The notes beneath the pieces are model-generated. The model had not been told where the DNA came from and did not search any database. It saw nothing but the letters and a program-made list of their open reading frames with translations. Shown here one piece after another: positions 6,847-8,116 of a stretch of 13,229 bases of DNA. Position numbers and translations under genes: made by a program. Each line of letters begins with the position of its first letter. Position 1 is the stretch's first letter. The stretch comes from Actinomycetota bacterium (GTDB taxonomy: Bacteria > Actinomycetota > Acidimicrobiia > Actinomarinales > Actinomarinaceae), in NCBI GenBank assembly GCA_002724835.1, contig PBPX01000028.1, positions 47,072 through 60,300 of the forward strand, read 5' to 3'.

Positions 6847-7581
6847 TTAATAAATATTCCTAGATATAACAACTAGCCCTGAAATAATTGAGAACCAAAT
6901 AACTCCATTCGAAATTACCTTATCCGAAACCTTAGTAAATAACTTAGATGAAAGGCTTATACCAAGCAGCGAGGGAAGAATCATGTATGCAAACATATAC
7001 AAGTGGTCTTGATATATTCGTCCATCAATTAACAAAAGAGTCAGTGTAATAAGTATTCCGAATGTAAAGACTGCATTAAGAGATGGTCTAAATTCTTTTC
7101 CTTTTGTATCTCTGTATAAAATTGCCACAGGTGGTCCACCAACGCCTGCGATCATCGCAAAAACTCCAGAAAACATTCCAGCATTAAATGAATTAATTGA
7201 ATTTCTACCTAGAGTCCATCCAAAATATGAAGCAAGACCTGCAAATAATACTATTGAACCAATAGTGGTTGATAGAATTCTTTGTTCTAAGTACATTAAG
7301 CAAAGTAATCCTAAAGGTCCTCCAACAACCCTTCCAATTAATAAATATTTCATTGGAGACCAAGTAACCTCTACTCTTTCTCTTACAAATATTCTTATTG
7401 TTAATGGGAGCGCTAACAAGCTAAGTAGGGCTGGTACAAGAGCTGGATCTATTTGAACAAGAATCGGAGAGGAGATTACAGCAAAGCCGTATCCAAGAAG
7501 TCCTTGAATGGAAGCGGCAACAAATAATAGGAGTCCAATAAAAACTAATTCATAGATTGTTAAGTCGAATGGTGTGTTCAA
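6847..7581 (-). CDS. TauE/SafE-family membrane permease
   Basis: A 244-residue integral membrane protein with about eight helices, typical in size for the TauE/SafE family of exporters and importers of sulfur-containing or organic anions (sulfite, sulfoacetate and others). The two pseudo-repeat signatures are visible: QGLLGYGFAVISSPIL near residues 26-41 and AGVGGPPVAILY near 145-156. The start is TTG (7579-7581), overlapping the UGA stop of the upstream SelW-like gene as TTGA; no separate ribosome site is apparent, so translation is probably coupled. The Lnt-like gene follows on the same strand. The substrate cannot be told from sequence; the link with a thioredoxin-like selenoprotein leans towards sulfur or selenium compounds, but that is inference. 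Confidence 0.85.
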   Translation of the reverse strand: MNTPFDLTIYELVFIGLLLFVAASIQGLLGYGFAVISSPILVQIDPALVPALLSLLALPLTIRIFVRERVEVTWSPMKYLLIGRVVGGPLGLLCLMYLEQRILSTTIGSIVLFAGLASYFGWTLGRNSINSFNAGMFSGVFAMIAGVGGPPVAILYRDTKGKEFRPSLNAVFTFGILITLTLLLIDGRIYQDHLYMFAYMILPSLLGISLSSKLFTKVSDKVISNGVIWFSIISGLVVISRNIY

Positions 7582-7814
7582 CTAAGAGCTTTTTCTATTA
7601 AACCTAGTATTTCTCCATCTTCAGTATGTCTATCAGTTTCTATTTTTGAGTAAAGTAATTCACCATTTAAGTAAAACTCAAATTTTCCACCTGATGTAGG
7701 TATTAAGTCTATAGATTCAACTTCTTGACCGTATTTTTCTAAAATGTCTTCAACCGTACTAACTGCACGGGGTGTGTAATTTCAGACTACGCAGAATTCT
7801 AGTTTGATTTCCAT
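7578..7814 (-). CDS. SelW-like (Rdx family) selenoprotein with in-frame UGA
   Basis: Read through one internal UGA, this frame gives a 78-residue protein whose N-terminus is MEIKLEFCVVUNYTPRA, with the redox pair Cys8-x-x-Sec11 in a thioredoxin-like beta-alpha turn. The conserved Rdx/SelW (SelT/SelW/SelH) landmarks follow: PRA, a helix, then LIPTSGGKFEFYLNGELLYSK, as in the usual GxGGxFEVxxxGxLIxSK pattern, and a C-terminal helix. SelW-type proteins are thiol or selenol oxidoreductases. UGA is at 7782-7784; the gene's own stop is also UGA (7578-7580), overlapping the next gene's TTG start. No Shine-Dalgarno precedes the ATG, but TAGTAT lies exactly six bases upstream. A hairpin just past the UGA fits a bacterial SECIS. 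Standard gene calling would miss or truncate this gene. The alternatives are a Cys-codon sequencing error or a decayed gene; the intact frame past UGA argues against decay. Confidence 0.82.
7754..7784 (-). promoter_or_regulatory. Candidate bacterial SECIS hairpin after the SelW UGA
   Basis: In the transcript, eleven bases after the UGA, CCGUGC (7770-7765) pairs fully with GUACGG (7759-7754), including one G-U, around the five-base loop AGUUA. The loop begins 18 bases after the UGA and has G as its second base, followed by U. This agrees with the described bSECIS model (a stem-loop within about 16-37 bases of UGA, with G in the first two loop positions) that recruits SelB. Confidence 0.7.
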
Positions 7815-7921: not shown

Positions 7922-8116
7922 ATGACTGACGGACTAAAAGCTAGTCAAATAAAAGGTGGTATTAGGCCATCAAAAAGTTTTGAACAGGGTCGTGTTTGCA
8001 ATGATGAGTCTTGCGAAACAAAACTAAGCATTTACAACAAGAGAGATCATTGTTTTAACCATGCTCCAGTTAAATATCCAAGAGTTAGAGGAAGAATTCT
8101 TCAGGAAACTGCCTAA
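7922..8116 (+). CDS. Small zinc-ribbon protein, putative nucleic-acid binder
   Basis: A 64-residue protein I can describe but not name. A basic N-terminal tail (KASQIKGGIRPSKS) is followed by a metal-site pattern C26-x4-C31-x12-C44-x2-H47 in RVCNDESCETKLSIYNKRDHCFNH, which resembles the C..C.T.LS.YN....C..H zinc-ribbon seen in small actinobacterial and phage DNA-binding proteins. A basic tail (KYPRVRGR) closes it. The start is firm: AGAGGAAAG sits just upstream of the ATG. Its own promoter and a perfect CRP-like palindrome lie in front, so it appears to be individually regulated. The CopZ-like gene begins 65 bases downstream, with its own possible -10. A role in copper control is conceivable, but the sequence gives no direct support. 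Confidence 0.75.
   Translation: MTDGLKASQIKGGIRPSKSFEQGRVCNDESCETKLSIYNKRDHCFNHAPVKYPRVRGRILQETA

Follow-up and report, generated by a model that had tools for sequence, protein, structure and literature searches.

A probable SelW-like selenoprotein with an in-frame UGA in the marine actinobacterial genus Candidatus Actinomarina

SelW-like proteins were the most abundant family in a survey of the Sargasso Sea, according to its main text (PMC1088965), and together with SelD they were the most widespread in the main text of the GOS survey (PMC2398784). The published mark of the bacterial SECIS element, as given in the former text, is a G in a small apical loop (PMC1088965). The string "actinobacteri" has no match in the main texts of three ocean-selenoprotein papers, these two included. 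For actinobacteria more generally, a 2016 paper counts the single-cell actinobacterium SCGC AAA015-D07 among the organisms with an orphan SelD (PMC5029168), and another text reports selenate reduction in the sister order (PMC12008989). We found no selenoprotein report for Actinomarina, Actinomarinales or OCS155 in a search of open-access journal papers. As SelW-like proteins have long been known and are abundant in ocean metagenomes, only their assignment to the Actinomarina lineage may be new.

We analysed a stretch of 13,229 nucleotides of an Actinomycetota genome, G000:C10:47072-60300 (hereafter "the window"), in which an earlier note had placed a SelW-like selenoprotein gene at 7578..7814. 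Those coordinates are correct, and the strand, which the note did not give, is minus (Table 1). The gene at 7814-7578 is almost certainly selW of Candidatus Actinomarina, with its UGA decoded as selenocysteine (Sec) via SelD, SelA, SelB and a hairpin. What the sequences themselves show is the gene, its Sec machinery, the conservation of the UGA, the hairpin and the predicted fold. SelD would provide selenophosphate, with which SelA would convert Ser-tRNA-Sec to Sec-tRNA-Sec. SelB, bound to the hairpin just past the UGA, would deliver the Sec-tRNA to the codon at 7784-7782, and the resulting protein of 78 residues would be thioredoxin-like (Rdx fold), with Cys-x-x-Sec as its active site. That Sec is inserted at this codon is probable from the families to which these components belong.

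Table 1. Positions of selW, its UGA and hairpin, and related genes (window coordinates unless a contig is given)
Feature	Position	Strand	Basis or remark
selW, predicted 78-residue Rdx/SelW selenoprotein gene	7814-7578	minus	ATG 7814-7812, terminal TGA 7580-7578; translation, PF10262, TIGR02174
In-frame UGA, codon 11, last position of CxxU	7784-7782	minus	TGA in relatives; aligns with Cys of PDB 2fa8, 2p0g
Putative bacterial SECIS hairpin	7754..7770	minus	arms 7770-7765 and 7759-7754, loop 7764-7760 (AGTTA); fold and covariation
TauE/SafE family permease gene	6847..7581	minus	TTG start; PF01925 80.2 bits
Divergent 64-aa ORF, neighbour upstream of selW	7922..8116	plus	genus-conserved by tblastn
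selD, predicted UGA-bearing selenoprotein gene with hairpin	G000:C10:24700-25620 (the window's contig)		about 29 kb from selW

The selW gene and its in-frame UGA

Translated on the minus strand, the gene reads MEIKLEFCVV-U-NYTPRAVSTVEDILEKYGQEVESIDLIPTSGGKFEFYLNGELLYSKIETDRHTEDGEILGLIEKALS-stop, with codon 11 as the only internal TGA and a further TGA closing the frame. On the plus strand, the frame that begins at 7578 is interrupted by several stops. The read-through product scored 62.2 bits against the Pfam Rdx family (PF10262, cut-off 22.6) and 55.5 bits against NCBIfam TIGR02174 (cut-off 34.2), and a narrower model, NF041051, gave 73.4 bits, under its cut-off of 88. The Pfam alignment runs across the UGA, from residue 3 to residue 74 of 78, and there is no other internal stop. 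Codons 8-11 (CVV-TGA) form the active-site motif, and in the alignment the solved relatives 2fa8 and 2p0g have Cys at the position of the UGA. Among 36 SelW sequences nine columns are invariant, including C8 and position 11 (UGA read as C). An AF2 model with Cys substituted for Sec reached a pLDDT of 96.8, and in a Foldseek search of the PDB its top matches were SelW-family proteins, the best being 2fa8 (E 6.7e-7, TM 0.90). The model points to a thioredoxin-like Rdx fold. By analogy with its family, the protein is most likely a thiol/selenol redox protein with a Cys-x-x-Sec site. The description of the gene in the earlier note as SelW-like, with UGA at the CxxU position, agrees with the Rdx scores above curated cut-offs, the conserved TGA and the Cys of 2fa8 and 2p0g.

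In the genome collection this one genus, with 42 species genomes, makes up the whole of its family and order. We found selW in 37 of them, with exactly one TGA in each and no Cys form among the 37 matches. Thirty of these loci were read base by base, and codon 11 is TGA in all 30. It is also TGA in all 31 SelW-encoding loci from named genomes (the closest, at 99%, from OCS155 cluster bacterium AG-333-G23), a set that has species in common with the other. Given one TGA in 37 of 37 matches and TGA in 30 of 30 and 31 of 31 loci, sequencing error is very unlikely. TGC or TGT in other copies had been named beforehand as evidence against Sec; every copy examined has TGA. The five genus genomes without selW are 66-83% complete.

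Trp occupies the Sec site in 106 of 109 database relatives (P0002-P0110); the remaining three (P0105-P0107) are without the N-terminal stretch. At face value this is what reassignment of UGA to Trp (genetic code 4) would give, with Trp at codon 11, since the proteins look as if called with table 4. However, 12 entries were inspected, and all ten of those bearing the Trp read the terminal TGA as Trp too and run on. In the window (G+C 32%), UGA serves as a stop: of 13 neighbouring ORFs, two (purA and an HMA/copZ-like gene) have a TGA stop and the other 11 a TAA stop, and the same 13 ORFs use 34 TGG codons. The two solved relatives have Cys rather than Trp at the site, and the genome carries Sec machinery. 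A reassigned code is thus extremely improbable, as the earlier note had judged from the ordinary UGA stops of purA and the copZ-like gene and from the use of TGG. The Trp in the protein set is instead what a systematic table-4 miscall would produce, and the locus exposes such a miscall of the selW UGA in a public resource. With 892 contigs behind one database entry, the gene is both common and mistranslated in that set. The same set already recognises the family, as one other entry is named selenoprotein W-related; with a single one of the 109 relatives bearing the source name "selenoprotein W-related protein", the gene had been called unannotated almost rightly. We also observed that P0105 is a 103-residue predicted protein that fuses the start of a copper ATPase to the end of SelW. 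The copper ATPase and SelW lie on opposite strands in the window, and P0105 resembles the product of an inverted amplification or of a chimeric assembly.

Selenocysteine machinery and SECIS hairpins

The window's assembly comprises 1.14 Mb in 68 contigs and is 80% complete. Its selC scored 77.7 bits as tRNA-Sec (cut-off 47, which one tRNA-Ser also passed with 49.4 bits) and was called tRNA-SeC(tca) by ARAGORN. The selA product scored 365 bits (cut-off 267.9). A selB candidate directly adjoins selA. Its product spans residues 3-545 of 561 in the alignment with TIGR00475, which is its best NCBIfam model, and scores 202 bits where the cut-off is 242; its winged-helix domain (SelB-wing_3) reaches 45.4 bits (cut-off 23.2). 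When the genome was searched with TIGR00475, EF-Tu (C13) scored 205 and the SelB candidate 198, and EF-Tu scored far better on its own model (704 bits). The putative SelB, judged by these scores, is divergent. The selD product scored 371 bits, above its cut-off, and the gene has one in-frame TGA, reading HGSGUACK. A second, partial selD-like stretch (98.6 bits) lies at a contig end (G000:C66:4946-5221). The earlier note had proposed a search for selA, selB, selC and selD and had held that a lack of Sec machinery would speak against a selenoprotein. selA, selC and selD were all found; for selB there is the candidate beside selA, with a wing domain that passes its cut-off and a TIGR00475 score (202 bits) that falls below 242.

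The machinery is similarly widespread in the genus. tRNA-Sec was detected in 40 of the 42 genomes with a cut-off of E <= 1e-12, which 2 of 14 control genomes also passed, selA in 34, and selD in 40, each main selD match having one TGA. In the genomes at least 90% complete, selW, tRNA-Sec, selA and selD were each present in 8 of 8. Genomes without a match (5 of 42 for Rdx, 8 for selA, 2 for tRNA-Sec and 2 for selD) are mostly less complete assemblies; one of them (G017, 83% complete) has selA and gave no Rdx. selB adjoins selA in all 30 of the relatives' selA loci examined, from 34 selA matches. In two genomes (G006 and G030), selA, selW, selD and selC are on a single contig, which argues strongly against a mixture of organisms. 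We infer that this small-genome marine actinobacterial genus is a genus-wide Sec user.

We surveyed part of the genus for further selenoproteins by comparing 343 kb of contig 1 of G006 with 381 kb of contig 1 of G018, then adding 279 kb of contig 1 of G021. This covered about one third of the G006 genome, and 254 of the 326 ORFs that reach 100 aa in the G006 contig could be compared. The first filters were swamped by antisense frames; the final filter demanded that, on both sides, the UGA frame be better conserved than the other five. Among the 749 TGAs that aligned to a TGA or Cys codon, five passed, including those of SelW and SelD. The three other candidates were set aside by eye: two were low-complexity or antisense, and one was near-identical in all frames, like a structural RNA. 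No selenoprotein besides SelW and SelD emerged in these 343 kb of G006. If this partial survey is representative, a compact genome keeps selA, selB, selC and selD for one client besides SelD, which makes maintenance of the Sec trait testable.

Starting 11 nt past the UGA of selW, a hairpin with a 6-bp stem and a 5-nt loop was predicted in 30 of 30 loci (22 distinct sequences). In the window 17 nt separate the UGA from the loop, whose second and third positions are G (7763) and T (7762), and the G in a small apical loop is that of the published mark. We aligned 51 sequences, 34 of them distinct: that of the window, those of 31 named loci and those of 19 loci from the class. In the stem 92.2% of cells are paired and 13 cells are doubly changed, and none of 500 shuffles reached either value. 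Pairing falls to 19-48% when the partner is slid by 1-3 columns. Loop positions 2-3 are GU in all 34 distinct sequences. Compensatory changes occur at two of the six pairs. Within the genus the first pair occurs as C-G, U-A or G-C, the third base of the Pro codon covarying with the first base of a Val, Ile or Leu codon; the pair is non-standard in 7 of the 34 distinct rows, all from outside the genus. The number of pairs changed on both sides was matched by 343 of 500 shuffles and the number of further pair types by 490, and the covariation is to be read with the relatedness of the sequences in mind and with the conserved RAV residues, which constrain the stem too.

The hairpin of selD is farther from its UGA, with 95.1% of cells paired (1 of 500 shuffles as high) and a loop that starts with GU in 18 of 18 distinct sequences. 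Its 8-pair stem is changed on both sides at one pair, the loop-closing one (A-U to G-C); 473 of 500 shuffles matched the both-side-changed pairs and all 500 the further pair types. It is the weaker of the two hairpins, as it was picked by eye after the first fold had suggested others. An Rfam scan of the window at gathering scores gave no match.

Distribution in the class and gene neighbourhood

The class in the genome collection, which we take to be GTDB Acidimicrobiia (NCBI assigns the genus to the class Actinomycetes), was represented by 395 genomes from 184 genera, an even sample of a larger group. selA was detected in 259 of the 395 genomes (120 of 184 genera) and Rdx in 154. Exactly one TGA is present in 149 of the 150 Rdx matches listed (112 of 113 outside the genus), six weaker matches standing outside this list. 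The single listed match without TGA (G045) has Cys, in the motif CTQC, and its genome gave no selA. Outside the genus, selA is present in 110 of 117 genomes with Rdx, versus 115 of 236 without it (Fisher p 4e-19, uncorrected for kinship or completeness). Both selA and a UGA-bearing SelW are therefore common in the class, and the premise of the earlier note that Sec decoding is uncommon fails there. A 2006 survey had already put Actinobacteria among three phyla rich in selenoprotein families (PMC1794560).

These counts also bear on whether selW is simply a gene broken by a stop, or one in which the UGA merely allows readthrough at a low rate. Read with table 11, the frame does end after 10 codons, as that of a pseudogene would. 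However, all 37 genus matches and 149 of the 150 class matches listed retain a single TGA, the Pfam alignment of residues 3-74 of 78 crosses the UGA and meets no other stop, and the hairpin is conserved. We regard a broken or leaky gene as very improbable and the Sec-decoded selW as the preferred reading.

In all 31 named loci the TTG start of the TauE/SafE gene overlaps the stop of selW as TTGA, and the permease ORF is intact in 30; in the remaining assembly (L142) the ORF after selW is out of frame. A tblastn search of about 1.5 kb on each side of selW in 20 class loci outside the genus gave no TauE (best E 1.3), so the pairing appears to be genus-specific, though distant relatives could be missed. 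selW might act as a selenium-gated leader for the permease, whose translation would then depend on ribosomes finishing selW and would occur only when Sec is available. We consider this unlikely, because such overlaps occur without gating; within the window, purA and the next ORF overlap as ATGA. Were it true, the supply of selenium would, in a genome of about 1.1 Mb, be tied to the export of an anion that resembles sulfite and perhaps contains selenium.

On the other side of selW, the divergent ORF has a tblastn match in 31 of 31 named loci at 87.5% identity or more, and in 15 of the 31 it is about 1.9 kb further from selW. Searches of this ORF against Pfam and NCBIfam gave no match, and neither did a tblastn search of phage records in the selW follow-up.

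An origin of the gene from another Sec-decoding bacterium through contamination, for which the estimated 4.09% contamination of the assembly would leave room, is scarcely credible, given that in each of the 31 named loci the orthologue has the same TauE gene as its neighbour, that 27 of these loci are titled Candidatus Actinomarina, Actinomarinales or OCS155, and that in both G006 and G030 a single contig carries selA, selC, selD and selW. Two more of the 31 loci are titled only Actinomycetota. The last two are titled Euryarchaeota ARS96 and Marinoscillum MED1001 (L146, L154) and are probably mis-binned contigs.

Comparison with known selenoproteins

In combination, the genomic evidence suggests that the Actinomarina SelW is most likely a genuine selenoprotein that belongs to a known kind; for its lineage we found no published report of one. 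Its predicted fold is that of the solved bacterial SelW/Rdx proteins 2fa8, 2p0g, 2obk, 3dex, 2ojl and 2oka (E 6.7e-7 to 3.1e-5, TM 0.82-0.90), with 17-24% identity in the structural alignments; in 2fa8 and 2p0g, Cys is aligned with the predicted Sec. The family fold is also common to mouse selenoprotein W (2npb; TM 0.76, E 6.7e-3), which has the CxxU motif as well. The SECIS element of eukaryotes is in the 3' UTR; here, unlike in eukaryotes, the predicted element is a coding-region hairpin right after the UGA. As in Sec-containing SelD proteins, the Actinomarina selD, a separate gene outside the window, also bears a UGA, within an N-terminal GSGUACK stretch that we take to be the usual Sec site of SelD. 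Surface-ocean metagenomes are dominated by SelW-like and SelD selenoproteins, some of which may come from Candidatus Actinomarina. The SelW-like selenoproteins of the Sargasso Sea and GOS surveys, as their main texts describe them, belong to the same family as the protein reported here and have the same CxxU motif and a SECIS element with a loop G (PMC1088965, PMC2398784).
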